From Corynebacterium urogenitale (GTDB taxonomy: Bacteria; Actinomycetota; Actinomycetes; Mycobacteriales; Mycobacteriaceae): DNA of 64,000 nucleotides. Positions within the stretch are counted from its first letter, which is position 1, and every line of letters begins with the position of its first letter. The DNA is taken from contig NZ_CP045032.1 in NCBI RefSeq assembly GCF_009026825.1, forward strand, positions 806,001-870,000, in the 5' to 3' direction. The notes beneath the pieces were generated by a model. The model saw only the letters and a program-made list of their open reading frames with translations. It was not told the DNA's origin and searched no databases. Of this stretch, positions 4,276 through 35,213 are shown one piece after another. The translations under genes and the position numbers were made by a program.

Positions 4276-5616
4276 ATGAATCGCCAGCAGGAATTTGTGT
4301 TGCGTACGATTGAAGAGCGCGACATTCGCTTCGTTCGTCTTTGGTTTACCGATATCCAGGGCTACCTTAAGTCTGTCTCCGTGGCTCCAGCTGAGCTCGA
4401 GGGGACATTCGAGGAGGGCATTGGTTTTGACGGCTCTGCTATCGAAGGCTTCTCCCGCGTCGCCGAGTCCGACACGATCGCCAAGCCGGATCCGAGCACG
4501 TTCCAGATCCTGCCATTCGAATCGGAACGCGATGGCAGCCTGTCTGCTCGTATGTTCTGCGACATCACCATGCCTGATGGTGAGCCTTCGTGGGCAGATC
4601 CGCGCCAGGTGCTGCGCAGACAGATGAACATTGCCGCCGAGATGGGCTTCACCTGCTACGTGCATCCCGAGATCGAATTCTTCCTGGTGCAGTCCACGGA
4701 AACCGATGGCGAGCGCCCGACCCCGACGGATACCGGCGGGTACTTCGATCAAGCTGTCACGGATGATGCACCGCACTTCCGTGCAGATGCCATCAATTCC
4801 CTCGAGCGCGTGGGCATCTCGGTGGAGTTTTCTCATCACGAGACGGCGCCGGGGCAGCAGGAGATCGACCTGCGTTTCGCCGATGCGCTGTCCATGGCGG
4901 ATAACGTGATGGCCTTCCGCTACATCATCAAGCAGGTCGCCCGCCACAACGGTGTGCGTGCCACGTTCATGCCGAAGCCATTCAGCGAATACGCTGGCTC
5001 CGCGATGCACACGCACATGTCCCTGTTTGAGGGCGATGAGAACGCTTTCCACGACCCAGATGATGAGCTGCGCCTGTCCACCACAGGTAAGTCATTCATC
5101 GCCGGCATTCTGGAGCACGCCTCTGAGATTTCTGCGGTGACGAACCAGTGGGTGAACTCCTACAAGCGCATTTCCTCCGGTGATGAAGCGCCGCGTTCGG
5201 CCGCTTGGGGTGCATCGAACCGTTCGGCGATGGTTCGCGTGCCGATGTACACGCAGAACAAGCCGGCGTCACGCCGAGTGGAAATTCGCACACCGGACAC
5301 CGCCTGCAACCCGTACCTCACCTACGCCGTGCTCATGGCCGCTGGTCTGAAGGGCATCAAGGAGGGCTACGAGCTGCCCGCCCCAGCCGAGGGCGATATT
5401 GCCCTGATGACCGCGCGCGAGCGCCGCGCAGCCGGGTTTAAAGATCTGCCTAATGACCTCGATTACGCGCTGCGTGAGATGGAGCGTTCCGAGCTGGTCG
5501 CTGATGCTCTTGGCGAGCACGTCTTTGAGTACTTCCTGCGCAATAAGTGGCGTGAGTGGAATAGCTACCAGTCCCAAATCACTCCTTGGGAATTGAAGCA
5601 CAACCTGGAGTTCTAA
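4276..5616 (+). CDS. glnA2: Glutamine synthetase type I, GlnA2 subgroup
   Basis: This 446-residue protein belongs to the type I glutamine synthetase family (ATP-dependent ligation of ammonia to glutamate). Visible family blocks are GFDGSAIEGF near residue 50, HPEIEFFLV near 132, AMHTHMSLFEG near 240 and RVEIRTPDTACNPYL near 335. Two features separate it from the main glnA1: the adenylylation loop NLYxLPPE is missing (the segment reads EGDIALMTARERRAAGF, without Tyr), and the metal/glutamate loop reads YAGSAMH instead of NGSGMH. Actinobacterial GlnA2 proteins are generally not the main glutamine-forming enzyme, and in Streptomyces relatives gamma-glutamylpolyamine synthetase activity is known. 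glnE follows after 129 bp, as in C. glutamicum and M. tuberculosis. Confidence 0.93.
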   Translation: MNRQQEFVLRTIEERDIRFVRLWFTDIQGYLKSVSVAPAELEGTFEEGIGFDGSAIEGFSRVAESDTIAKPDPSTFQILPFESERDGSLSARMFCDITMPDGEPSWADPRQVLRRQMNIAAEMGFTCYVHPEIEFFLVQSTETDGERPTPTDTGGYFDQAVTDDAPHFRADAINSLERVGISVEFSHHETAPGQQEIDLRFADALSMADNVMAFRYIIKQVARHNGVRATFMPKPFSEYAGSAMHTHMSLFEGDENAFHDPDDELRLSTTGKSFIAGILEHASEISAVTNQWVNSYKRISSGDEAPRSAAWGASNRSAMVRVPMYTQNKPASRRVEIRTPDTACNPYLTYAVLMAAGLKGIKEGYELPAPAEGDIALMTARERRAAGFKDLPNDLDYALREMERSELVADALGEHVFEYFLRNKWREWNSYQSQITPWELKHNLEF

Positions 5617-5623
5617 ATCGATT

Positions 5624-5665
5624 GAGCCCGCAATCCGCGCCTCTTGGCGCAGGGTGTGGGCTCTT
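5624..5665 (+). terminator. Possible attenuating hairpin between glnA2 and glnE
   Basis: GAGCCC (5624-5629) can pair with GGGCTC (5658-5663), with an inner CGCGCC/GGCGC helix, followed by TTGT. The T run is weak, so partial readthrough into glnE is likely if it acts as a terminator. Confidence 0.4.
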
Positions 5666-5745
5666 GTCGGATTAATCTGAGAAGCAGATAGCTGTTCACT
5701 GAGCGCTGCAGGTTATGGAGCGCCGATACGAAAGGTCCCCGAAGG

Positions 5746-8700
5746 ATGACTCGCCCTCGGTCGTCACGTTCCCGAATTCCCAGTGCGCGAACCTTGGGGT
5801 TGACGCGTCCGCGTGCTCAGGAGGATCTCGAGCTCCTGGGGTGGGTGGAGGAGCAACACGTTCCTGTTTTGGTGACTTTGAGCTCATGTGGTGACCCGGA
5901 TCTGGCACTGAATAATGTCGTGCGGCTGGTGGAGGAATTGCGTTCGCAGGAGGAGGCCGGAACTCTTGCCTCTGTGTCCGTCGAGGGAGAGGTCGGCTCT
6001 TTTTCCGACGCCACGGCGGACACCTTGCTGGAGGCGCTGACTAATAACAAGGGGCTGCGGCGCCGCTTGCTGGCATTGTTCGGAGCTTCCAGCATGCTCG
6101 GCGATCACATCGTTGCGCACCCGGAAGACTGGGTGCAGTTGGCTCTGCCGATGCCAGATACCCAGGCCATGATGGATGCCATGCTGGGGTCCGTGGACGC
6201 AGTGCCGGTGAAAGAAGTGTTGGCGTTCGATGAATCCGCCGAATTTAAGAGCACTTCTGACGAGAAAAAAGCTACGGAGCCTCCTCATGAGGGTTCGCGT
6301 CTTTTCCGGGCCCGCATTACTGGTCCGGAGGCGGATACGGCGATGCGTGATGCGTACCGCACGCTGCTTGCGCGTGTGGCGGCGATTGATACTGAGGGTA
6401 CGTTTATCGTTCGCGGGGAGCCGGATCCGGAGCCACTATCCTTCGTCACTCTGTCACAAGCGTTGGCTGATTCCGCCGACGCGGCGCTCACTGCGGCTTT
6501 GGCAGTGGCATGTTCGACTGTCTATGGCGGCCCGGATGACGAGAATGCAAAGCCGCCGGCTCGACTGGCTGTGCTGGCGATGGGCAAGTGCGGTGCTCGC
6601 GAGCTGAACTACATCTCGGATGTGGACGTCATCTTCGTTGCCGAGCCCGCCGATGCCCGGGCGACTCGCTGGGCTGGCGAGTTCATCAATATTGGTTCCC
6701 GCGTGTTCTTTGAAGTGGATGCCGCCTTGCGCCCGGAGGGTAAGCAGGGAGCGCTGGTGCGCACATTGGCGTCGCACAAGACGTATTACGACCGTTGGGC
6801 GGCGACATGGGAGTTCCAGGCTTTGCTCAAGGCGCGCCCCATGTCTGGCGATTTGGAGCTTGGCCAAGAGTACGTGGATGCGCTGGCACCGAAGGTCTGG
6901 ACAGCCTCCCAGCGTGAGGATTTCGTCCCAGATGTGCAGAAGATGCGCCGACGGGTCATCGACAATGTGCCGGATGAGATTCGCCATCGTGAGCTGAAGC
7001 TGGGCCCCGGTGGCCTGCGTGACGTGGAGTTCGCCGTCCAGCTTTTGCAGATGGTGCACGGCCGTGTGGACGAATCTCTGCGCGTCCGCTCCACTGTGCA
7101 GGCGTTGGCCGCACTGGTGGATGGGGGTTATATCGGCCGCGAGGATGGCCAGATTCTCCAGCGTTGCTACGAGTTCATGCGCCTGCTGGAGCATCGCTTG
7201 CAGCTATTCCGCCTCAAGCGCACGCACACCCTTCCGGCGAAGGACGACGCTGAGCAGCTCACGTGGCTTGCACGCACTTCCGGCCGCAAGCCCGAGGGTT
7301 CGGCGAGTTACGCGGAGCAGTTGGAAAAAGATGTGCGTGGGGTGAGCGTGCAGATTCATCAGCTGCACTCCAAGCTGTTCTACCGTCCTCTGCTCAACTC
7401 TGTCGTCTCCTTGGACGACGACACCATCCGGCTCACTCCAGAGTCCGCGAAACGCCAGCTGGCTGCCTTGGGCTACGAGAACCCAGATCGTGCGTACGAC
7501 CACCTGATGGCTCTGGCGAGCGGTTCGGCACGCAAGAACAAGATGCAGGCAATTATCCTGCCGATGTTGTTGGAGTGGCTGGCGCCAACAGTTGACCCCG
7601 ACGCTGGGTTGCTGGCCTACCGCAAACTCTCAGAGACGGCGAGGGAGAAAAAGTGGTATCTGCGGCTGCTGCGCGATGAAAACGTCGTGGGTCAGCGGTT
7701 GATGTATCTGCTGGGAACCTCGCCCTACGTGGCGGAACTGCTGCTTAACAGCGTGGATACCGTGAAGCTGCTCTCCGATGGAGCGAATGGGCCGAAGCTC
7801 GTCGAACGCGATCCAGCGGTGGTGACGCACTCCTTGGTCGCTGCCGTTGCGCGTCACCGCAACCCCGAAAAGGCAATCCAGATTGCGCGATCCCTGCGCC
7901 GTGCGGAATTGGCTCGCGTGGCAGCCGCTGACCTGCTGGACTTCATGACGACGGAGGAAGTCTGTAGCTCCCTGTCTTGGGTGTGGGATGCCGTGCTGGA
8001 AGCTGCACTGCAGTCGGAGATCCGAGCCTGGGAAGATGCTCATGATGAGAATGCCCCGGCAAAGATTTCGGTTATTGGCATGGGGCGCCTCGGGGGCGCG
8101 GAGCTGGGCTATGGCTCGGATGCGGACGTCATGTTCGTCACCGAGTCGGCGGACATCCCGGAGGATCCGGCGGCCCAATCTGAGGCGGATAACAAGGCCG
8201 TCAAGTGGGCTGCCCATATTTGTGACTCGGTGCGTGCTCGCCTGGGGCGCCCTTCCCAAGACCCGCCGCTAGAGGTGGACTTGGACCTGCGCCCGGAGGG
8301 GCGCAACGGCGCAGTTGTCCGCACTCTGGAATCCTATGAACGCTACTACCGCGAGTGGGGCGAAACTTGGGAGATGCAGGCATTGCTTCGTGCGACGTGG
8401 ATCGCGGGTGACAAGGACTTGGGCATTCGCTTCCTGCGCATGATTGACCAGTTCCGTTATCCAGCAGGTGGCGTGACAGACGAAACTGTCCAGGAAGTGC
8501 GCCGCATGAAGGCCCGTGTGGATGCAGAGCGGTTGCCAGCCGGTGCAGATAAGAAGACCCACACCAAATTGGGCCGTGGCGCTCTCACGGACGTGGAGTG
8601 GACCGTGCAGCTGCTGATGATGCAGAACGGTCAGGTCGCGGAGAATTTACGCAATACATCCACGCTGGAGGTGTTGCAGGAACTCGCCAATTCTGAACTG

Positions 8701-22152: not shown

Positions 22153-25100
22153 CTACTGGTCAATCTGGTCCAACTGCGGTTCCGCACTAATACCGCCCAT
22201 GACCACGTTTTTCGCCAGTGGGATCTGGTGGCTGGCGCTTTCAAGGATGTGCATGAAGTACCCGGCAGTGTTGGGAATTGCGATGATATCCCCGGCGGCA
22301 ATCCCTTCTGGGAATTCCATCTTGCGTCTGATGATCACTTCGTCCTCGATGCAGTAGGCACCGACGAGGAAACCCTCGGTGCTCTCGGCATGGTCATCAG
22401 CACCATTCCCCGCACGATCCGCAGCTGGTTGCCCGGCACCATCCGTGATCTTTTCCGGCCTGTCGCTGGCCGGGATGAGCAGAGGATCGAGCAGGATATC
22501 GTCGGCAGTGGTGCGGCACTGCGTGCGGTTCATCTCCAACCCAACGAGTGGGGTGCCATCGGACATGGTTTTGGTGAAGGCCACTCGTGCCAGGATCATT
22601 CCGCAGCCATCGAGGATGCTTCGGCCTGGTTCCAGGTGTAGCCGTAGATTCCGCTGTTGCAATCCGGCGACGATCGAGTCATCGAGAACCTCCTGCAACC
22701 ACGCGCCACGCGTCGGTGACTGGTGGAAGGGGTAGGTGTTGGCCAATGGGTCTGCCTTCCATGTGAAAGGTTCACGCCGTCCGTCGATCATCGCCTGCCG
22801 TTGCGTGTGGAAGTTTTCGAATTCCTCCGCGTCGTCGAGGTAACTCATCGGCACGCCACCACCCAGATCAATGAACTGCGGTGTGTGTCCTCCATCTGCG
22901 ATTGCGTCGATGAGTTCGAAGCATTGTTGCAACGCAGTTCGACGATCCGCAGCGGCGTAGCCGTGGAGGTGAACGTGCACGCCGGCGATGCGGACCCGTG
23001 TGGCGTCGAAGGAAGATAGGGAGGCGGACCAGGTGCCACCGAGCTCGCCGAAGCGGGTGGCGGGCAAGGTGTCCGGGCGTGGGGCTAGCCGCGGTGCCAC
23101 GATGGCTGTGGTCTGGAGGCTTGCGGCGAGGGCTTCGATCCGCCGCATCTCCGCGACGTTGTCTGCGGAGATTGTGACGTCGTTCCGGATCGCCAACTCG
23201 AGCAGTTCATCGGGTTTGATCGCGGCGCTGAGGATGATGCGCGGCCCCGGAACACCGCGGTCGAGGACGTGTGCGAGTTCTCGGTAGCTGGCAACATCCA
23301 CGCCGTGTCCGGCATCGCGCATCGTATCGACGAAGCACAGCGCCTTATTGGCCTTGCGTGCGTAGAACACACGCACGTCGATTCCACGGTCACGGCCAGC
23401 GGTGACGAGCTCTTCCACGTTGTCACGCATTGCCGCGGTATGCAGCACGTTCGCGGGAGAGCCGTAGGTCTCAATGATGCGCTGCGCCCCGGCAGGGTCG
23501 GCAGCCAAATCGACCATCCAAGGTTCCAGGCGCGCAGTGAGCGGTACCGTAGCGCGGGCGCGAGAGCGCACGTCCGGTTCGGGTGCAGTGGTGTGAGCGT
23601 TCATGTTCGAGTGTTCCTTCTTCGCATCTTCGACGACGCCACGAGCCCAGCGGGTGACAACATCGTGCAATGTACGCGACAGTGTATCCGGCCCAAGGAC
23701 AACGTCTTCCGTATCTCGTCCCACGATGGCGAGGGTGGGATGGTCGGGTAGGCTGCCATCCCGATGAACTTCAATTCCCCGGTGCCCCTGGGGGACGTGG
23801 GCGATGCCCTGCGACACAAGTTCGGCAGCCAGTGTTCCTGGAACGAGGCCGGGCGGTGCGATGACACAGTCGGTAAAACCCTGGGTTGTGGCTCGGGCGG
23901 CTTGTTCATCCGTGAGGTGCTGGGTGGAGAGGATTCCAGCGTCAAGGAGGGCCAGGATCTTTGCCGAGTTGATGATCGGTGGGCCGAAAGCGACACGTTC
24001 CATCCGGCGGGCGAGATCGCCAAATCCGGGGAAGTCCATGCGTCCTCCGAAGGAGGTGCGCTCCACAATAGCTGGGTAGAGTGTCCGAAATGCGTGCCCT
24101 GCAGCCCACCGCGCCGTCGGCGGTGTGGATCCCGTAGCTACGAGCAAAGACTGACGCAGATCCTCCACAGGCTCGCCGACATCGGATCCGGCCAGGACTT
24201 GGTGAATAGCTACCAAGTCCTGCTCATCGTGATTCGCAGGAGTATCGACGTTCCCAATGCTTTGCGCCTGCGTGCGGTAGACGCAGCGGGCCACGGAGAG
24301 CATCTCGCAGGCAGTATTCGCGATGGCAGCGGTGAGCTCCTCATCCGTGCTGGCAAGCCGCACCTGGTTGCTGCCGCGAATGATGCTCTCCTCGAGATCG
24401 AGGTGAGCCAGCATCCCTTCCGGATCAACCTTGGTCTCCATGAACCTTCCGGAACGGCTGAAAGGCACGATAGCCCGCGGTTCACGACCACTGGGAACGT
24501 AGGTGAGCTGACCAGGAAACTCCGGTGTCTCGGCCGGCTGGAAGTACCCGCCGCGGCCTTCGGTGAGGTCCAAGGTGGCGTCGATGAAAGTCAGGGCCAA
24601 TCCGCGCAAGGCGATTGGGTCGCGATCCTCGGCAACCACGGGGTCGAGCGCGCCAGGCCACGTGCTGGCATGGCCTGCTGCGAGGAGAACACGGTCGAAG
24701 CTGGATCCGTTGACGGACCAACGCTCCGCGGATTCGGGCGCGGAATCCCATGGTTGCAGTGTCGTGACCTTCTCGTGGTGCACGGTGACTGTGACACGGC
24801 GCGGGAGGTTGCCAAGGGTATGCTCCCACGAGGCAATTAGGAATTCGCCAACGAGCGCGCGGGCGGGGAAGTAGTCATCTGCAGAACTGAACAAGTCTTC
24901 AGCCTCGCTGTGGCGAGGAGCCGTTGCAGAGCAGGCGCGGCACCATTGCGTGAAAGAGCCGAGTGCTGTGGACACTATCCGAGACGTGACATTCATGCGC
25001 TTGTAGCTCGGTTGCTGCGGGGAATAGGCCGAGCCCGGCCCCAACTGCCCAGGCTCAAATACGTGCACGTCTAGAGAGACTCCGGCGCGACCAGCGCGAG

Positions 25101-25161
25101 AGGCCAGCTCCTCCACAGCCCACAGACCGCGGGGACCTCCGCCGATGATTGCCAGCTTCAT
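22153..25161 (-). CDS. Fusion of a FAD/NAD(P)-binding protein and a Y4yA-like fold-III PLP decarboxylase-family enzyme
   Basis: One uninterrupted frame of 1002 codons. Residues 1-519 form a FAD/NAD(P)-binding protein starting MKLAIIGGGPRGLWAVEEL (dinucleotide-binding glycines) and containing VLLAAGHAS. Residues 520-1002 form a fold-type III PLP enzyme (ornithine/diaminopimelate decarboxylase family): PLP lysine K603 in VFYARKANKA, HVHLHGYA, FIDLGGGVPMSYL, LEPGRS, the active-site cysteine C937 in VGAYCIEDEV, and NTAGYF. The second half most resembles the Y4yA-like subgroup. A possible independent start, ATG at 23604 (Met520) with AAGGA 10 nt upstream, may yield a separate 483-residue protein. 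The first ATG overlaps the SbnA-like stop codon (ATGA), so the two are coupled. Substrate unknown; a role in a metallophore-like pathway is inferred. Confidence 0.8.
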   Translation of the reverse strand: MKLAIIGGGPRGLWAVEELASRAGRAGVSLDVHVFEPGQLGPGSAYSPQQPSYKRMNVTSRIVSTALGSFTQWCRACSATAPRHSEAEDLFSSADDYFPARALVGEFLIASWEHTLGNLPRRVTVTVHHEKVTTLQPWDSAPESAERWSVNGSSFDRVLLAAGHASTWPGALDPVVAEDRDPIALRGLALTFIDATLDLTEGRGGYFQPAETPEFPGQLTYVPSGREPRAIVPFSRSGRFMETKVDPEGMLAHLDLEESIIRGSNQVRLASTDEELTAAIANTACEMLSVARCVYRTQAQSIGNVDTPANHDEQDLVAIHQVLAGSDVGEPVEDLRQSLLVATGSTPPTARWAAGHAFRTLYPAIVERTSFGGRMDFPGFGDLARRMERVAFGPPIINSAKILALLDAGILSTQHLTDEQAARATTQGFTDCVIAPPGLVPGTLAAELVSQGIAHVPQGHRGIEVHRDGSLPDHPTLAIVGRDTEDVVLGPDTLSRTLHDVVTRWARGVVEDAKKEHSNMNAHTTAPEPDVRSRARATVPLTARLEPWMVDLAADPAGAQRIIETYGSPANVLHTAAMRDNVEELVTAGRDRGIDVRVFYARKANKALCFVDTMRDAGHGVDVASYRELAHVLDRGVPGPRIILSAAIKPDELLELAIRNDVTISADNVAEMRRIEALAASLQTTAIVAPRLAPRPDTLPATRFGELGGTWSASLSSFDATRVRIAGVHVHLHGYAAADRRTALQQCFELIDAIADGGHTPQFIDLGGGVPMSYLDDAEEFENFHTQRQAMIDGRREPFTWKADPLANTYPFHQSPTRGAWLQEVLDDSIVAGLQQRNLRLHLEPGRSILDGCGMILARVAFTKTMSDGTPLVGLEMNRTQCRTTADDILLDPLLIPASDRPEKITDGAGQPAADRAGNGADDHAESTEGFLVGAYCIEDEVIIRRKMEFPEGIAAGDIIAIPNTAGYFMHILESASHQIPLAKNVVMGGISAEPQLDQIDQ

Positions 25162-26210
25162 CGCGCGTCATCTTTCGGGGAACCGAGGCGAGCGATCCGT
25201 TCCTCCACCTCAGAGACAGTGAGACTCAGAGTATCCTCCACCCACGCATCGTTGTACACCGTGTTCATGTAGGCTTGGCCATCGTCATGGAGCAGCAGGA
25301 CCACCGTGGCTCCTTCCGGGAGCACATCCTGTTGGGATAGGAGGGCAGAGACAACGGCGCCACCGGAGGCCCCGGCGAGAATGGCCTCGCGCCGGGCAAG
25401 TATGCGTGTGCCCACTACTGATTCACCATCCGAAACTCGGCAGATTTGATCCGGTTGGGTCAATCGAGCCAGCTCCGGAACCATGCCGGCACCGAAGCCA
25501 GGAAGTGTGCGAGTAGCACGGCAGCCGCCAAACAGGACCGAACCTTCAGCGTCCACCCCGACAAGCGTAGTGCCGGCACCGATTCTTTGAAGATGACGAG
25601 CACACCCGCCAATAGTGCCCGTGGTGGACATGGCCACGAACACGTAATCCGGTGTTGCCCCTAAAGCGTCGATGACCTCCGCCATGGTGCCCTGGTCATG
25701 AGCGTTAAGTGCAGCCTCGTTGGAATACTGGCCAAGATTGATTGAACCGGGGATCTCTTCCAGCAGCTTTTCGACACGTGAGCGACGGGCTACCAGCCAG
25801 TCGCCGGTCTCAGGATCCGGTTCGCTCACTACGTGCACGGTTGTGCCCAGAGCCTTCATCGTGGCCACCGTCTGTTCGTTGGCTCGCGGGTCAACCACAC
25901 AGTGGAAATCCCAGTCGCGCACGGCACACTCACGGGCAAGGGCCATGCCAAGGTTTCCAGAACTCGACTCGACGAGTGCGGGCCTCGTGGTGTCGGATGG
26001 GGAAGAAGGGACGACGCCAGAGGCCAGCGCATCATCAACGAGTGCTTTGGCCGTGCGGTCCTTGGCCGAATGCATGGGGTTGAAGCTTTCGAGCTTTGCG
26101 AAGACCTGAACATCCTTGCGGCGCTCGAGCAGGTGGTCGAGGCGCACAAGGGGAGTAGAACCGATGGTGGCATTGATGCCGACCACCGGCGTGGAAGAAT
26201 CTGGGGACAT
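25158..26210 (-). CDS. SbnA-like PLP-dependent beta-substituting synthase (cysteine synthase superfamily)
   Basis: The 350-residue fold-type II PLP enzyme has its PLP lysine at K50 (MHSAKDRTAK) and the SSSGNLG loop at 82-88 in place of the TSGNT of cysteine synthases. ESSSGNLG, CVVDPR, and the TEPDP-TGD...AR stretch (here SEPDPETGDWLVARRSRV) match, from memory, staphylococcal SbnA, which joins O-phosphoserine and glutamate to form N-(2-amino-2-carboxyethyl)-L-glutamate, the precursor of L-2,3-diaminopropionate. A GxGxG-like MSTTGTIGGCARHL phosphate loop is present. It begins with ATG at 26210 (GGAAAG upstream), 109 bp after the amidohydrolase gene, and overlaps the next gene by 4 bp. A plain cysteine or cystathionine synthase role is less likely because of the SSSGN loop. 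Confidence 0.8.
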   Translation of the reverse strand: MSPDSSTPVVGINATIGSTPLVRLDHLLERRKDVQVFAKLESFNPMHSAKDRTAKALVDDALASGVVPSSPSDTTRPALVESSSGNLGMALARECAVRDWDFHCVVDPRANEQTVATMKALGTTVHVVSEPDPETGDWLVARRSRVEKLLEEIPGSINLGQYSNEAALNAHDQGTMAEVIDALGATPDYVFVAMSTTGTIGGCARHLQRIGAGTTLVGVDAEGSVLFGGCRATRTLPGFGAGMVPELARLTQPDQICRVSDGESVVGTRILARREAILAGASGGAVVSALLSQQDVLPEGATVVLLLHDDGQAYMNTVYNDAWVEDTLSLTVSEVEERIARLGSPKDDAR

Positions 26211-26319
26211 ACTTTCCCACTGTACGCTTTCCAGTCAGTTCTCCACGCGCTCGACTCAGTTCTCCGAGAAAAGCGGTATGTCTTCTACTGGATTCTCTGG
26301 AGACTGATGGCGGAGTCAG

Positions 26320-27657
26320 TTACTCGACCCCGACTTCATCGGACTGCACATTGCCCATGAGGTGATCCACGGCGATGTGAGAGTGCAGACGAACACCGTA
26401 TTCAAGGGCCGCGTCATTGACGTAGAACTTCGGGCTGTGGTTAGGAACCAGGCCGCGACTGCCCTCCTTGCTCGGCTCCAGAGTGCCCTTCTCTGTGAAG
26501 ACCACGTCCTGGCCACCCAGCAGTGCGTAGACACCGCCGAAACGAGCGATGAACTCGGACACATCGTCGTAGCCCATGCTGACTGGTAGCTCCGCAACCG
26601 GGTTATCGCCAGCCACGCGCTTGTACACCGGCAGTACGGCATCGATCCACTCTGGGGAATTGACCACAGGCGGGATCTGGTCGAAGAACTCGACCTTGCC
26701 GGTGCAGCCGTGAGCGGCAGCCAGGTTCTCCACGTAGCGGGTGATACGCGCGTTGACATCCTCAACGACCGCGGAAGTGACTGAACGGACGGTGCCCCAA
26801 ATCTCGACCTGATTACCGACGATGTTGAAGCGCCCCTGATCGACGATGTGGCCCAAGGAAATGGAGAAACGCTCCTTGACATCGACCTGGCGGTAGATCT
26901 GCCCAATGTTGCTCAGGACATCGCCAACGGCAGGCATCGGGTCGATACCCTGCCACGGGGTGGAAGCGTGAACCTGCTCACCAGTGATGGTGATCTTCAC
27001 AGTCTCCGACGCAGCATTCTGAACTCCGCGGGAGTAGCCGATGGTGCCAATAGGGCCGGGGCCGATGTGAATGCCGAATGCCATCGTCGGCTTGGGATCG
27101 AAGAAGCCCTGCTCCTGCATTTGCTCAACCATGTAATCGGCGCCACCATCCTCGCCTGGAGGTGGACCTTCCTCGGCGGGCTGGAAAACGAGCATGATGT
27201 CGCCGTGGATGGAGTCCCTCAATCCGAAGAGAACCTTCGCAGCACCCAGCAGCATCGCCACGTGGGTGTCATGGCCGCAGGCGTGGGCGACGGGGAAGGG
27301 GCCACCAGGGTAGTCGTTGTCGACGACCTTGGAAGCAAAGCTTTCGCCCGAGTCCTCCTTCACGGGAAGAGCATCCGTGTCAGCACGCAGGAGGACGGTG
27401 CGCTTTTCCCCCTCGCCATCGCTGCCGCCGCGGATGAAGGCCACCACGCCGTGACCTCCAACGCCGGTCGTGATGTCGGCGTCGTCGATGCCGATGTTCT
27501 TCAGCTGTTCGATGATGAACTCTTCAGTTTTGGCTTCGCGGTTAGATAGTTCTGGGTTTTTGTGAATGTGATGGCGCCATTCGATCACTTCGTCGGCAAT
27601 CGAAGAGGCCGCTTCGTCAATGCTTTTGTAGTACGCAGATAGGTCGGTGTCAGTCAC
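26320..27657 (-). CDS. M20-family amidohydrolase (N-acyl amino acid hydrolase type)
   Basis: The 445-residue metallohydrolase has the usual bimetal-site motifs: HACGHDTHVAMLLGAA near residue 117, FQPAEEGPPPGEDGGA near 150 (catalytic glutamate), GIHIGPGPIGTIGY, then a lid domain with QVHASTPWQGIDP, and LVPNHSPKFYVND at the C terminus. The M20 amidohydrolase/hippurate hydrolase subgroup includes AgaA, the N-acylglutamine aminoacylase of axillary corynebacteria; AgaA-like activity is possible but not established. The GTG at 27657 is placed 6 nt from GAGGAG and is preferred over the in-frame ATG at 27687, where the same GAGGAG would lie inside the gene. It is the first gene of a probable three-gene unit. 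Confidence 0.85.
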   Translation of the reverse strand: MTDTDLSAYYKSIDEAASSIADEVIEWRHHIHKNPELSNREAKTEEFIIEQLKNIGIDDADITTGVGGHGVVAFIRGGSDGEGEKRTVLLRADTDALPVKEDSGESFASKVVDNDYPGGPFPVAHACGHDTHVAMLLGAAKVLFGLRDSIHGDIMLVFQPAEEGPPPGEDGGADYMVEQMQEQGFFDPKPTMAFGIHIGPGPIGTIGYSRGVQNAASETVKITITGEQVHASTPWQGIDPMPAVGDVLSNIGQIYRQVDVKERFSISLGHIVDQGRFNIVGNQVEIWGTVRSVTSAVVEDVNARITRYVENLAAAHGCTGKVEFFDQIPPVVNSPEWIDAVLPVYKRVAGDNPVAELPVSMGYDDVSEFIARFGGVYALLGGQDVVFTEKGTLEPSKEGSRGLVPNHSPKFYVNDAALEYGVRLHSHIAVDHLMGNVQSDEVGVE

Positions 27658-27796
27658 GGTGAACTCCTCTGGCGGTGCGGACGGCACATCTGTGTAGATG
27701 CTTTAGGATCCCTTCAGCGTGAAGCCTACGCTTGCTCAGCGGATGCTGTCTGGATCGTTATAGGTCTGTGAAGGGCCGGCTGGGGGAATACGAACA

Positions 27797-27868: not shown

Positions 27869-29326
27869 TTAGAGCTCGCGAACGAGGCGGAAGCCCCACA
27901 TGGTGGAGTGAATGTAGTTGTTGTAGTACGCCGAACGGTAGGCGATGCGCAGGTTCTGCGGCATGTAGTCCCATGCTCCGCCGCGCAGGACGGGGAACGT
28001 GGAAACACCCTCGGTGCGTGGCTCCTCGTTGGATGGGCCGGACTCGAGGTTCGGCTCCCAGTAGTCGGAAACCCACTCGCGAGCGTTGCCAGTCATGTCG
28101 TAAAGACCCCAAGGATTGGGCTTGTAGGACTTCACCTCTGCGGTGTAGGCTGCGCCGTCGTCTGACTCCATGATCGGGGAGAAGCCGTATCCGGTCGCCT
28201 CGTCGGTGCGTCGGTCGTAGCCTGCTGCGTACTCCGCGCCGTCGTTGACATCCTCGCCCCAGAAGTACGCAGTGTCTGTGCCGGCGCGGGCAGCGTACTC
28301 CCACTCGGCTTCGGATGGCAGGCGCCACTTTTGCCCGGTCTTGGCGCTCAGCCACTCGGCGAAAGCCTCTGCATCGGCACGGGAGACCTGCACCACTGGG
28401 TGCTTATCGGAATCCTGTGGAATGCCAGGCTCCTGCCAGGTCACACCCTCGCGGTACATCGACGAGGTCGGCTCGGTGGAGTCCGGTGGCTCTGGGAAAC
28501 CGACGCCATTGGGTGCCGTGGCGTAGCCGGTGTCCTCAACAAAGGCTGCAAACATTTCGCGTGTGACCTCGGTTGGCATGATGCCGAAGCGCTTGGAGAT
28601 ACTGACCTCGTGCTTCGGGGACTCCCAGTCCTGGCGGTAATCGTCAACGTCGTGGCGATCCCACTCTGCCTGGTCGCCACCCATCTGGAAGGAGCCTGTG
28701 GGCATCACTGTGAAGTCGAGGTCGAAGTCGCCGACCTTGTCGGAGTAGGTTTCCAGGTCTTTTAGTTCGCCGTCGTTGGCGGAGCTGCTGTCCTGGCTCA
28801 CGGCTTCGATGCCGTCAGTGGGCTTGCTGAGGTTGTGTGGATTCTCGAGGGCGAAAGCTAGACGGTCGCGCCACAGCTGCATATCGGCGCGTGTGTAGCG
28901 GTTCTCCAGCTGCGCTGGGCGGTTTTCTTGCTCGAAGTTATCCTCTTCGTCGAGCATGGCCTGCGCCTGGGAGCGGAGGATCGTCGCGTCCAATTCGAGT
29001 TGCGGGTTGTCACCGTCCTTCGTTGCGTCGACAAGCTTATTGGCGCCATCAAGGACGCGGGAGTAGACGCCGCGGTAATAGCCTGGCTGCCATTCGACGT
29101 TGGCCTCGGCCTCCTCGAAGACCTTGTTGAGCTCGTCAATGACTGGCTTGGCTTTGTCGTTGGTCTGGGGAGTCTCCGCCTTTTCTGCGCTCTCTGCCGA
29201 GGCGCTCGTGGACTGCGATGCCTGCTGGGAAGCGTCATCGGAGTTGGCGCAGGCTGCGAGGGTAAGTGCCAAAGATGCGGACAAGAGTGTTGCAGATGTG
29301 GCGCGGAGGCGATTGTGCTTGGACAA
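27869..29326 (-). CDS. Lipoprotein with FGE-sulfatase (SUMF1-like) domain
   Basis: The N terminus SKHNRLRATSATLLSASLALTLAAC is a lipoprotein signal with a LAAC lipobox, so the protein should be anchored outside the membrane. A Ser/Ala/Glu-rich linker and an alpha-helical stretch follow to about residue 190. The C-terminal 300 residues are an FGE-sulfatase domain: FTVMPTGSFQMGGDQ, HPVVQVSRADAEAFAEWLS, WRLPSEAEWEYAARAG, YDMTGNAREWVSDY, VLRGGAWDYMPQNLRIAYRS and WGFRLVREL. The paired cysteines of copper-dependent formylglycine-generating enzymes are absent, and no sulfatase gene is nearby, so another role is likely. The TTG at 29326 has AAAAAGG 8 nt upstream; the alternative GTG at 29404 would be almost leaderless from the promoter at 29413-29441 but adds 26 residues before the signal. 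Confidence 0.8.
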   Translation of the reverse strand: MSKHNRLRATSATLLSASLALTLAACANSDDASQQASQSTSASAESAEKAETPQTNDKAKPVIDELNKVFEEAEANVEWQPGYYRGVYSRVLDGANKLVDATKDGDNPQLELDATILRSQAQAMLDEEDNFEQENRPAQLENRYTRADMQLWRDRLAFALENPHNLSKPTDGIEAVSQDSSSANDGELKDLETYSDKVGDFDLDFTVMPTGSFQMGGDQAEWDRHDVDDYRQDWESPKHEVSISKRFGIMPTEVTREMFAAFVEDTGYATAPNGVGFPEPPDSTEPTSSMYREGVTWQEPGIPQDSDKHPVVQVSRADAEAFAEWLSAKTGQKWRLPSEAEWEYAARAGTDTAYFWGEDVNDGAEYAAGYDRRTDEATGYGFSPIMESDDGAAYTAEVKSYKPNPWGLYDMTGNAREWVSDYWEPNLESGPSNEEPRTEGVSTFPVLRGGAWDYMPQNLRIAYRSAYYNNYIHSTMWGFRLVREL

Positions 29327-29412
29327 AATGCGTACCTTTTTCTCTTGTAGATCGATGGGTTGCAATGTCGGCGCGTTGTAACTTGTTTGGTACAGGTCGT
29401 GCACTAAAACCC

Positions 29413-30806: not shown

Positions 30807-32276
30807 CTAGACGTCAAAGTACATCTCGAACTCCTGCGAAGTCGGACGTTGACGCACCGGATTGATCTCATTCTCATACTTGAATGCGATGTAGTTGTCG
30901 ATGAAATCCTCTGTGAATACGCCACCGGCAGTGAGGAAGTCCGAATCTTCCTTGAGGCACTTCAGAGCTTCATCCAGGGATGTCGGCACCTGAGGGATAT
31001 TCTCCACCTCCTCTGGAGGCAAGTGATAGATGTCCTTATCCACCGGCTCGTGTGGCTCAATTCGGTTCTTGATGCCATCGATGCCCGCCATCAACATCGC
31101 AGAAAAAGCGAGGTACGGGTTGCCCGAAGGATCAGGTGCGCGGAACTCGATGCGCGTCGCCTTGGGGTTGCCATCCGTCAGCGGCACACGAATTGCAGCC
31201 GTGCGGTTGGCTTGGGAATACACCAAGCTCGTCGGAGCCTCGAAGCCAGGCACCAGACGATGATAAGAATTGGTCGTTGGGTTGGAAAAAGCCAAGATGG
31301 CGCCAGCATGCTGCAGGATTCCGCCGATGTAGTGGCGAGCCATTTCGCTGAGGCCCGCATAGCCGTTTTCGTCGTGGAACAGTGGCTCGCCATCCTTCCA
31401 CAGTGACTGGTGGGCATGCAGCCCGCAGCCGCCATCATCGGCCAATGGCTTCGGCATGAACGTGGCGACCATGCCATTCTCCTTGGCGGTGTTCTTGGTG
31501 ATGTACTTGAAGCTCATCAAGTCATCAGCCGCGCGCAAGAGCGTATCGAAGCGATAGTTGATTTCCTGAATGCCGCCAGTGGCGACTTCGTGGTGGAAGC
31601 GCTCGATGGAGAAGCCATAGTCCTGGAGGCGGCGCACCATGCGGTCGCGGATCTTCACCGTGCCGTCATACGGCGCCACGGGGAAGTAACCGCCGAATAC
31701 GCGGACCTTGTTGCCCAAGTTCGGTGACCCATCCACCATGGTCTTCGCACCTCGGTTCCACCAGCCCTCATCGGAATCCACTTCGTGGAAGGAACTGTTG
31801 ATGCCGCTGGAATAGCGCACCGAATTGAAGACGTAGAACTCCGGCTCAATACCAAAGTTGCAGGTATCAGCGATGCCGGTTTCCTGGAGGTACGCCTCTG
31901 CCTTCTTGGCGATATTGCGCGGATCACGTGGATACTGGGCCCGCGTACGAGAATCATGTACGAAGAAGCGCACATTCAGCGTCTTCTCCTCACGGAAAGG
32001 ATCAAGCCGCGCTGACTGAGGATCGGGCAGCAGGTGCATGTCCGAGTTCTCCACCGAAGCAAAGCCACGGATCGAGGAGCCGTCGAAAGCCAGTCCGGCC
32101 TCCGCAGAACTCTCATCGAATTCCTCTGCCGGTATGGAAAAGTGCTGTTCTACGCCCGGTACGTCAGTGAAACGAATATCAATGAAGCGAACGTCCTCCT
32201 CTCGGATATAGTCGACGAGATGGCTCACGGTCTCGATATTCTTCGGCTGGACGGGAGAGAAGGACTGATGAGTCAC
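30807..32276 (-). CDS. Glutamine synthetase type I paralogue with altered glutamate-binding loop
   Basis: A 489-residue protein closely related to GlnA1 at 33777-35213. Retained are [26 protein letters not shown] (metal ligand H287), [34 protein letters not shown] and a GlnE-type loop [11 protein letters not shown] with Tyr417. The loop that is NGSGMH in canonical enzymes (Asn264 and Gly265 in Salmonella numbering contact glutamate) reads GGCGLH, with Gly282 replacing the asparagine. This suggests another amine or acid substrate, as in gamma-glutamyl ligases of the family. The GTG at 32276 has AGGAG about 11 nt upstream; the longer frame overlaps the SbnB-like gene. It lies 101 bp downstream of that gene and is probably co-transcribed with it. 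Confidence 0.88.
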
Positions 32277-32377
32277 GGTAGAGGCGGCTCCTAACAAGCC
32301 GCAGGAAATCTTTGGGTTTGGCCGGCGCCACGAATACGTGGCGCCAGCAGAAGAGGTGCCTAGGGAGAGGTTGGAGA

Positions 32378-33556
32378 CTAGGACAATGTCGGCTGATCCC
32401 ACAGGTTCAGCGTGGTGCCGATGCCCTTAGCCTTGGCGTTGTTGTACACATCCATTGCCCACGCGACATCCTCCACAGGCATGCCGCCAATGGAGTAGCA
32501 GAAAATTTGCTCATCGTTTGTGCGGCCAGGAGCAGTGCCATCGGCGATATCGCCGATATTCACCAGCTTGGATGCAGGAAGAGTGCCCTCTTCCTTCATG
32601 TCCCACCAGCGGTTGCCAGGAATGCCCAGCAGATCCTCATAGGTGACATTCGGGCCGTTCTCGTTGAACCATTCCTCGTACAAGCCTGTGTAATCCAACA
32701 CCAGGTTTGCATCGTCTGATGCAATGAACTCGTCGTCGAAGCGCGCGGCGGCAGGAGCTAGAATGAGGGCGCCAGGCTTGATGTACTCCTTCTTGAAGTA
32801 CGGGAAGCCACTTGGGCCGTCCTTCGACGTGGACGTACCCGCGATGGCAATATCGCTACCCTCAATCGCCTCCTGCTCCGAGGTAACAACCGAAACGCTG
32901 AGTTGAGGGTACTTCTCGCGGAAGTATTGGGCTGCGCGCTCCGTGGACTTCTCCGAACGGCCCTTGATCTTCAGGGTCTTGATACCCGGGCGCTGGGAGA
33001 GGGTGGCGTCGAAAATCGTCCTCGACATCACGCCTGGGCCGATGATTCCCACAGTCTCAGCATTTTCGACGGCCAAATGCTTCACGCCCACGCCTGGGAC
33101 TGCACCCGTGCGGTAGGCAGACAGGAGGTTCGCTGACATGATCGACAACGGTGCGCCCGTGACCGCATTATTGAGGACAAATACGTGGATAGAACGTGGC
33201 AGGTCATGCTCTCGATTCTCTGCATTTGAGCCGTACCACTTCACACCTGAAGCGCGGAATCGGCCGCCGAGGTACGCAGGCATTGCCATGAAGCGGCGAT
33301 CCGGACCATCTGCCGGCATTTCTTCATGCTCAGGGTTGGCGGGGAAATTGATCTGCGCGCCGTGCGAATTAGCGGAGGCGCCAGCCATTCTGTAGTCACC
33401 GCGAGCCAAGAGGATGAGCGTCTCCTCCATTGTTTCCACGCACTTTGCGGAATCCGTCACGCCGGCTTCGATCATGTCCGGCTCGCTCAAATAGAGGAAA
33501 TCGATCTTTGGTGAAGTTGGGAAGTCGTTGCCAGAAGTGTCCTGAGTAGAGGGCAC
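32378..33556 (-). CDS. SbnB-like NAD(P)-dependent dehydrogenase (ornithine cyclodeaminase/mu-crystallin family)
   Basis: The 392-residue protein belongs to the ornithine cyclodeaminase superfamily: [13 protein letters not shown] at the N terminus, [43 protein letters not shown], the NAD-binding [12 protein letters not shown], and a C terminus ending GIGTTLNLW. The LYL-x3-D-I-x-A-G opening, the MP-x3-GG-x5-SG-KW-GS block and the IGTTLNL ending match, from memory, staphylococcal SbnB, which oxidatively splits the SbnA product to L-2,3-diaminopropionate and 2-oxoglutarate. Ornithine cyclodeaminase or opine-type dehydrogenase activity are alternatives. The GTG at 33556 has AAAGG 5 nt upstream; longer in-frame starts lack a ribosome-binding site. 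It lies between glnA1 and the glutamine synthetase paralogue on one strand. Confidence 0.78.
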
Positions 33557-33707
33557 AAATACCTTTCGGGGGTTGGGTGCACGCTTGCTTATGGAGGCAG
33601 AGGATGACTGCCCCATAAAGTCCAGCATACAGATTTCCGTTTTAGGGAAAAGGTATTCGAGGTCCTGCGAAGAAATTGGGGTGTTAGATTGCCGATTTCT
33701 AGCAACA

Positions 33708-33739
33708 CAAAAGGCCCGCCCCTCAATGGGACGGGCCTT
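33708..33739 (-). terminator. Terminator after glnA1
   Basis: On the minus strand AAGGCCCG (33739-33732) pairs with CGGGCCTT (33718-33711), extended by CC/GG pairs, followed by TTGTGTTG. It lies about 40 bp downstream of the glnA1 stop and should limit readthrough into the SbnB-like gene. Confidence 0.75.
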
Positions 33740-33776
33740 GACGCTCAAGCAGGAAGTACCTGCCGATGAGTTCGAC

Positions 33777-35213
33777 TTAGCAGTCGAAGTACATCTCGAA
33801 CTCCTGCGGGGTTGGGCGCAGGCGAACTGGTGCGATCTCGTTGTCGTACTTGTAACCGATGTAGGTATCGATCAGGTCATCGGTGAAGACACCGCCGGCG
33901 GTGAGGAATTCGTGATCCTCCTCCAGAGCCTTGAGAGCAGCCTCGAGGGAAGTAGGAGCCTGAGGAATGTTCTTTGCTTCCTCCGGTGGGAGCTCGTAGA
34001 GATCCTTGTCCACTGGGGCGTGAGGCTCGATGCGGTTCTTGATGCCGTCCAGGCCGGCCATCATCATGGCGGCGAAGCCGAAGTATGGGTTGCCGGATGG
34101 GTCTGGAGCGCGGAACTCGAGACGCTTTGCCTTCGGGTTGGAGCCGGTGATCGGGATACGCACAGCAGCGGAGCGGTTGCGCTGGGAGTACACGAGGTTG
34201 ATTGGAGCTTCGAAGCCCGGCACCAGGCGGTGGTAGGAGTTCAGGGTTGCATTGGTAAAGGCCAGCACAGCGCCTGCGTGCTCCAGGATGCCGCCGATGT
34301 AGTAGCGGGCGATGTCGGACAGGCCACCGTAGCCGTTCTCATCGTGGAAGAGTGGCTGGCCATCCTTCCACAGGGACTGGTGGGCGTGCATGCCGGAGCC
34401 GTTGTCGCCAGCGAGTGGCTTTGGCATGAAGGTCGCAACCTTGCCGGCAGCCCACGCGGTGTTCTTGATGATGTACTTGAAGGTCTGCAGATCATCAGCA
34501 GCGTGCAGCAGGGTGTTGAACTTGTAGTTGATCTCCTGCTGGCCACCGGTGCCCACCTCGTGGTGAGCGCGCTCCAGCTCGAAGCCACCGTTGATCAGGT
34601 TGCGGGACATGTCGTCGCGCAGGTCCTGGAAGTGGTCGTATGGAGCGGTAGGGAAGTAGCCACCCTTTGGACGGGTCTTGTTACCGCGGTTAGGGGTGCC
34701 GTCTGGGTTCAGCTCTTCGCCACGGTTCCACCAACCCTCGATGGAATCGACCTCGTAGAAGGCGTGATTCATCTCTGCGGAGTAGCGAACGTTATCGAAA
34801 ACGTAGAACTCAGCCTCAGGGCCGAAGAAGCAGGTGTCAGCAATGCCGGTGGAGGACAGGTACTGCTCAGCCTTGCGGGCAACGTTACGAGGGTCGCGGG
34901 AGAATGGCTCGCGAGTGAAAGGATCGTGGACGAAGAACTTGATGTTCAGGGTCTTCGCCTGACGGAAAGGATCGATACGAGCGGTCGCGAGGTCCGGCAG
35001 CAGGTTCATGTCGGACTCTTCGATGGTAGTGAAGCCGCGGACGGAGGAGCCGTCGAATGCGAGGCCTTCCTCTACAACATCTTCGTCGAACGCGTCAGCC
35101 GGGATGGTGAAGTGCTGCTCCTGACCCGGGACATCGGTGAATCGGATGTCGACGAACTCAACGTCGTTATCCTTGATGTACTTGACGACTTCTTCGGCAG
35201 TCTTGAATGACAC
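33777..35213 (-). CDS. glnA: Glutamine synthetase type I (main enzyme)
   Basis: The principal ammonia-assimilating glutamine synthetase, 478 residues, forming a dodecamer in this family. All canonical blocks are present: [74 protein letters not shown] and [13 protein letters not shown]. The adenylylation loop is [11 protein letters not shown] with Tyr406, the predicted target of GlnE encoded at 5746-8985. In C. glutamicum glnA is repressed by AmtR under nitrogen sufficiency; I see only a weak half-match to the AmtR box in the upstream region, so control is uncertain. The order glnA1, RDD protein, DUF4191 protein, lipA, lipB, dlaT follows the mycobacterial Rv2220-Rv2215 arrangement. Confidence 0.97.

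Follow-up and report, generated by a model that had tools for sequence, protein, structure and literature searches.

A two-gene, three-enzyme unit in Corynebacterium urogenitale: an SbnA-like synthase joined to a flavin-PLP fusion protein, and the pathway proposed for it

The two-gene unit

The window analysed here is a stretch of 64,000 nucleotides of Corynebacterium urogenitale DNA (contig NZ_CP045032.1, positions 806,001 to 870,000). It contains a gene for an SbnA-like synthase which overlaps, through an ATGA stop/start, the gene for a fusion protein with a flavin adenine dinucleotide (FAD)-binding half and a pyridoxal 5'-phosphate (PLP)-dependent decarboxylase half. These two genes, which encode three enzymes, are the conserved unit, and they represent a real and widely spread three-enzyme pathway. 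No description of an SbnA/FAD/Y4yA-like unit, or of a product for it, was found in the open-access literature, in agreement with a first-pass annotation that had proposed an undescribed small-molecule pathway from the DNA letters alone. That annotation had placed three genes on the minus strand, the last two overlapping, and open reading frame (ORF) calling recovers all three and the overlap; the end it gave for the M20 amidohydrolase gene, 27657, is an in-frame internal start, and the ORF reaches farther (Table 1).

The SbnA-like protein has a PALP domain, its best NCBIfam model is TIGR03945 (SbnA), and both motifs singled out earlier, SSSGNLG and EPDPETGD, are located in it. The two halves assigned to the fusion are likewise recovered as PF13454 (residues 4-164) and PF02784 (residues 590-782) matches, and the AlphaFold model of the fusion has a mean predicted local distance difference test score of 91.3. 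Since scores of genomes contain relatives of the pair, these frames are not chance ones.

Table 1. Features of the unit and of its surroundings in the window
Feature	Position	Strand	Basis
FAD-PLP fusion gene, 1002 aa	22153-25161	minus	ORF call, Pfam
Fusion C-terminal half, residues 535-1002 plus stop, Y4yA-like fold-III PLP decarboxylase	22153-23559	minus	
Fusion N-terminal half, residues 1-515, CreE/FzmM-type flavin N-monooxygenase fold	23617-25161	minus	
ATGA stop/start overlap, 4 nt, SbnA-like gene/fusion	25158-25161	minus	
SbnA-like fold-II PLP synthase, 350 aa	25158-26210	minus	ORF call, PALP/TIGR03945
M20 amidohydrolase gene	26320-27687	minus	ORF call, family scan
FGE-sulfatase/PvdO-like domain protein, likely lipoprotein, upstream of M20	27869-29404	minus	
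Type I GlnA paralogue	30807-32402	minus	
Ornithine cyclodeaminase (OCD)-family gene, NCBIfam "tyramine oxidase subunit B"	32378-33748	minus	
Type I GlnA paralogue	33777-35213	minus	

Scanning of named genomes yielded 77 loci. Because they were picked out with two PLP peptide patterns and then ranked by their match to the whole fusion, adjacency of the FAD and PLP parts among them was selected for; adjacency of the SbnA-like gene was not. This gene lies directly upstream of FAD-PLP in 73 of the 77 and 1.6 kb upstream in one, and the remaining three begin at a contig edge. The FAD and PLP parts form a single frame in 36 loci and two frames in 41 (scored by script, L085 being ambiguous). Distances between the SbnA and FAD frames, with starts chosen by script, could be measured at 72 loci. 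At 45 of these the two overlap, the overlap being four bases at 35, and at 70 they are no more than 158 bases apart. Of the two exceptions, L085 was assigned a later start by the script, and in C. jeikeium L072 an opposite-strand RtcB-like frame (5365-6702; named by eye) separates SbnA from the FAD-PLP gene. At least 26 SbnA-FAD fusion proteins (PF00291 plus PF13454) are present among the 120 matches listed, with Zunongwangia, Mesonia, Pricia and Gracilimonas as named examples, and at L124 the reading frame is open across the SbnA-FAD junction. Judged from these gene structures, the FAD-PLP and SbnA-FAD fusions tie the predicted pathway steps together. A fusion of another kind is seen among the matches listed in Paenibacillus, whose SbnA proteins P0200, P0205, P0207 and similar ones carry a PF27279 domain.

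Carriers of the unit include Corynebacterium, Rothia, Arthrobacter, Phycicoccus, Propioniciclava, Tessaracoccus, Hoyosella, Nocardioides and Patulibacter, as well as Rhodopirellula and further Planctomycetes, Sphingobacterium, Zunongwangia, Mesonia, Myroides, Pelagicoccus and an acidobacterium; the unit is on plasmids in Sulfitobacter and Tsukamurella. We take these carriers to span five phyla, with the Sulfitobacter plasmids besides. Within Corynebacterium, fusion-protein matches occur in 88 of 201 sampled genomes (a hand-compiled list with best E < 1e-50, which includes decayed or fragmentary copies); named carriers in the genus include C. striatum ATCC 6940 and four members of the C. tuberculostearicum group. 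Twenty relatives from the genus were fetched and 19 are shown (L045 has no PLP frame); the genes around the fusion vary among them, the ORF caller placing SbnA next to it in 15 of the 19 and a transposase-like gene adjoining it in one other, and the fusion of the nearest sampled relative, G147, is 65% identical to that of the window. When 396 Actinomycetota genomes were searched with separate SbnA, FAD and PLP alignments, four genomes gave FAD scores of at least 470 bits (the next was 261 bits). The four highest-scoring SbnA hits come from these genomes too, and PLP frames follow right behind on the same contig, the PLP match of G308 being in two pieces. Two further Corynebacterium loci have a FAD half standing alone (L185:7589-9040 and L186:7996-9420); in the L186 genome a short fragment of PLP lies some 9 kb off. 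These lone halves suggest that the pathway has decayed in some species.

The other genes around the unit do not accompany it. Matches to the M20, FGE/PvdO-like and OCD-family genes of the window were found near none of the 77 named loci, and all three are absent from the neighbours shown at the 19 genus loci, that of G147 included. The three-gene operon of the first-pass annotation is thus reduced to two: the neighbourhood comparison it had proposed supports the SbnA-like gene and the fusion as one pathway unit and fails for M20, which is most likely a bystander. The OCD-family gene was considered as the missing SbnB and rejected, since it is not linked to the unit; its subfamily is present in 20 of 61 Corynebacterium genomes, nine of which have a fusion hit, as against 26 of the 61 overall (hand count). 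It is flanked by the two GlnA paralogues, about 6 kb from the unit, and terminator-like hairpins at 30708-30673 and 29499-29474 separate these genes from the rest, the count of such sites in the stretch not being above that in shuffled sequence. For a wider comparison the 77 named-genome loci were joined by 20 others, at least six of which repeat one of the 77, and by two plasmid loci, giving 99. Clustering of 999 neighbour ORFs from 97 of these (L065 and L045 have no anchor) revealed no general extra partner; the widest clusters are ABC-ATPase-like (13 loci, 5 groups), short-chain dehydrogenase (6 loci), oxidoreductase (3) and catalase (3), together with frames that overlap the unit itself, and no Pfam family dominates among 109 neighbour proteins hand-picked from 233. 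Signs of a link to general stress (catalase, Usp) are anecdotal.

Predicted enzymes and proposed pathway

SbnA makes N-(2-amino-2-carboxyethyl)glutamate (ACEGA) for staphyloferrin B. The reading we prefer for the unit, with a probability of about one half, is a free-standing three-step pathway in which a condensation would be followed by N-oxygenation in the place of SbnB and then by decarboxylation. The reading is built on homology, gene order, fusions, active-site residues and phylogeny, and its substrates, product and activities are predicted.

In the first step the SbnA-like enzyme would remove phosphate from O-phospho-L-serine and add an amino acid, most likely L-glutamate, to give an N-(2-amino-2-carboxyethyl)amino acid (ACEGA if glutamate is used). 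Its best solved relative is Staphylococcus aureus SbnA (206.9 bits, against 139.3 bits for CmnB, the next distinct protein), and its predicted PLP lysine is K50. Residues R132, Y152 and S185 of SbnA select O-phosphoserine (PMC12414870); they align with R142, Y162 and S195 of the window protein, and all 30 of the FAD-type SbnAs aligned have them (28 of the 72 named SbnA frames, the window and Sulfitobacter). The position of S195 is glycine in both aligned synthases from OCD-type clusters, which hold an OCD-family dehydrogenase (see below). In trees from a single FastTree run each, with a cysteine synthase as the only outgroup, 31 FAD-type SbnAs group apart from eight OCD-type ones (support 0.761), and when ten further SbnA rows (three known OCD-domain fusions) were added, the synthases of the OCD-type clusters were placed outside the SbnA clade.

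The flavin half is homologous over its full length, and similar in fold, to PDB 8cp2, an N-hydroxylase forming nitrosuccinate by oxidation of aspartate (PMC10404684), and the positions of 8cp2 N62, R266 (as lysine) and R409 are mostly kept in its family. On grounds of this homology and of gene order it would use NADPH and O2 to N-oxygenate the product of step 1, and so would take the position of SbnB, the NAD-dependent enzyme of diaminopropionate synthesis. In the fold-III half the residues K603, C937 and E939 are conserved; the PLP lysine K603, the catalytic cysteine C937, and E844 and R847 of the EPGR motif are present in 26 of 26 aligned FAD-type rows, and the PLP gene of Sulfitobacter carries the NCBI name "Y4yA family". 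This half would take off a carboxylate in the third step, leaving a small N-oxygenated or N-O-derived diamino compound made with no dedicated exporter or assembly line. More tentatively, the whole may be a minimal route to an N-O-containing decarboxylated aminocarboxyethyl-amino acid that is kept inside the cell, for example N-hydroxy-N-(2-aminoethyl)glutamate, and thus to a new metabolite class in which a relative of aspartate N-hydroxylase replaces SbnB. The nearest chemistry known to us is that of the alanosine pathway. There, a CreE-type enzyme is found together with an N-hydroxylase whose substrate is carrier-bound diaminopropionate (PMC7347517).

Alternative readings

Several results weigh against the three-step pathway as proposed. 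The TIGR03945 score of the window protein (318.5 bits) is below the curated cut-off of 349.95, which is missed also by two of five FAD-type relatives (329.8 and 348.5) and passed by the other three (358.1, 385.6 and 392.5). The ten added SbnAs fall within the FAD-type group, which is therefore not exclusive to that type; they adjoin its Bacteroidetes-type members in a joint clade of 20 (support 1.0), the whole group of 47 having support 0.869. Residues R412, N413 and R416 of 8cp2, mapped by eye on the alignment, correspond to Y362, P363 and V366 in the window; among 40 flavin rows R412 is kept in none, N413 in one and R416 in two, these positions being mostly Tyr, Pro and Val, and it is possible that the flavin half acts as an oxidase without N-hydroxylation. 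Finally, Sinorhizobium fredii Y4xP, encoded next to y4yA, is reported to be a cysteine synthase (PMC3973906); no y4yA gene is listed in pNGR234a 440000-478000. This report, with the membership of the two proteins in the PALP and 8cp2 families, would fit ordinary sulfur or nitrite metabolism, with the SbnA homologue serving as a cysteine synthase and the flavin half turning aspartate into nitrosuccinate, but the uniformly kept O-phosphoserine residues, the near-total loss of the three 8cp2 residues and the close linkage of SbnA, FAD and PLP make that improbable. A rather doubtful but more serious alternative is that the flavin enzyme substitutes for SbnB in function as well as in place, oxidising the secondary amine of ACEGA so that C-N cleavage yields 2-oxoglutarate and L-2,3-diaminopropionate, the latter being converted by the decarboxylase to ethylenediamine or a simple derivative with no N-O bond left. 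The SbnA-FAD fusions do parallel SbnA-OCD fusions, FAD-type and OCD-fused SbnAs share a clade, and no second N-O-processing gene is generally conserved; the description of the closest solved relative, 8cp2, as an N-hydroxylase speaks for N-oxygenation instead. That M20 is a working part of a three-gene operon, for example deprotecting an N-acyl intermediate, is very improbable indeed given its absence near the named loci and from beside the unit in G147, even though it is on the same strand with a gap of 109 bp and no terminator-like site is listed in between.

The first-pass annotation had also raised a metallophore, and this idea has lost ground. A separate Corynebacterium cluster, L181-L184, has OCD, Y4yA-like, SbnA-like and MATE genes with FecCD and binding-protein genes (named from L182-derived queries and by eye) and is likely an aminopolycarboxylate metallophore locus. 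Twelve FAD-less SbnA-Y4yA loci were compared (four from Corynebacterium, pMAH135, a Rhizobium plasmid and six from five Actinomycetota genomes): OCD and MATE are both present in 11, FecCD in five and a binding protein in four. The twelfth, L175, is an SbnA-like and Y4yA-like pair with no FAD, OCD or MATE match within 17 kb, and is perhaps a third variant. Against MATE in 11 of the 11 OCD-type loci, a MATE exporter, a binding protein and an OCD-type dehydrogenase were each found at none of the 99 FAD-type loci, near which there is a FecCD-like gene in two cases and some ABC ATPase in 16; the queries for MATE and FecCD were taken from L182, one of the OCD-type loci, so distant transporters may be missed. 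At L051 an ABC-transporter-like gene set is directly upstream of the unit, and a transporter role in some species is therefore possible. The best DtxR-box match is 10/19 in the window and at most 12/19 in 45 Corynebacterium upstream regions, none of these being a good one. The earlier remark that the window has no IucA/IucC ligase holds, and the genome search that was to accompany it gave a single IucA/IucC-family gene (G000:C1:1989250-1990029), far from the window; across the 201 genomes such genes are present in 27, of which nine are among the 88 with a fusion hit, with no association between the two (Fisher p 0.30, a test that ignores kinship). In favour of a metallophore, aminopolycarboxylic-acid or ethylenediamine-disuccinate (EDDS)-like clusters are reported in C. 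striatum and skin corynebacteria (PMC10486106, PMC12542688). Carriers of the unit, C. striatum ATCC 6940 and the four C. tuberculostearicum-group genomes, lack a close OCD-type dehydrogenase, their matches being of just 26-32% identity, and because of this the label given to such genomes may fall on the SbnA/FAD-PLP unit. A metallophore role for the unit is accordingly possible but not favoured, and an exported aminopolycarboxylate similar to [S,S]-EDDS or to a precursor of staphyloferrin seems unlikely.

Comparison with known systems

If the three-step pathway is confirmed, a wide set of bacteria would make a small N-oxygenated compound from two common precursors, an alternative to SbnB would be shown, and the automatic "metallophore" label would be corrected, should it fall on the unit, which Corynebacterium, Planctomycetes, Bacteroidetes and marine Sulfitobacter share. 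The unit resembles SbnA/SbnB/SbnH in its SbnA-type synthase with the same O-phosphoserine residues and in its fold-III PLP decarboxylase of the SbnH/diaminopimelate decarboxylase fold; unlike that system it has a flavin monooxygenase instead of an adjoining SbnB, and the window is without IucA/IucC. To the CreE/FzmM-type L-aspartate N-hydroxylases (8cp2, 8cp5) it is related by full-length homology and fold, whereas its flavin half is without R412, N413 and R416 and is coupled to SbnA and a decarboxylase. The Sinorhizobium fredii cluster, likened by description only, is similar in that y4yA is beside a cysteine-synthase gene, and differs in its other members, y4xM-y4xO and y4yB (PMC3973906). 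A PALP synthase and a Y4yA-like decarboxylase are also common to the unit and the SbnA-OCD-Y4yA-MATE clusters, which are presumably EDDS-like. Those clusters, however, use an OCD-family dehydrogenase and a MATE exporter, some with a FecCD-type importer, and their synthases lie outside the SbnA clade, the two that were aligned lacking the equivalent of S185.

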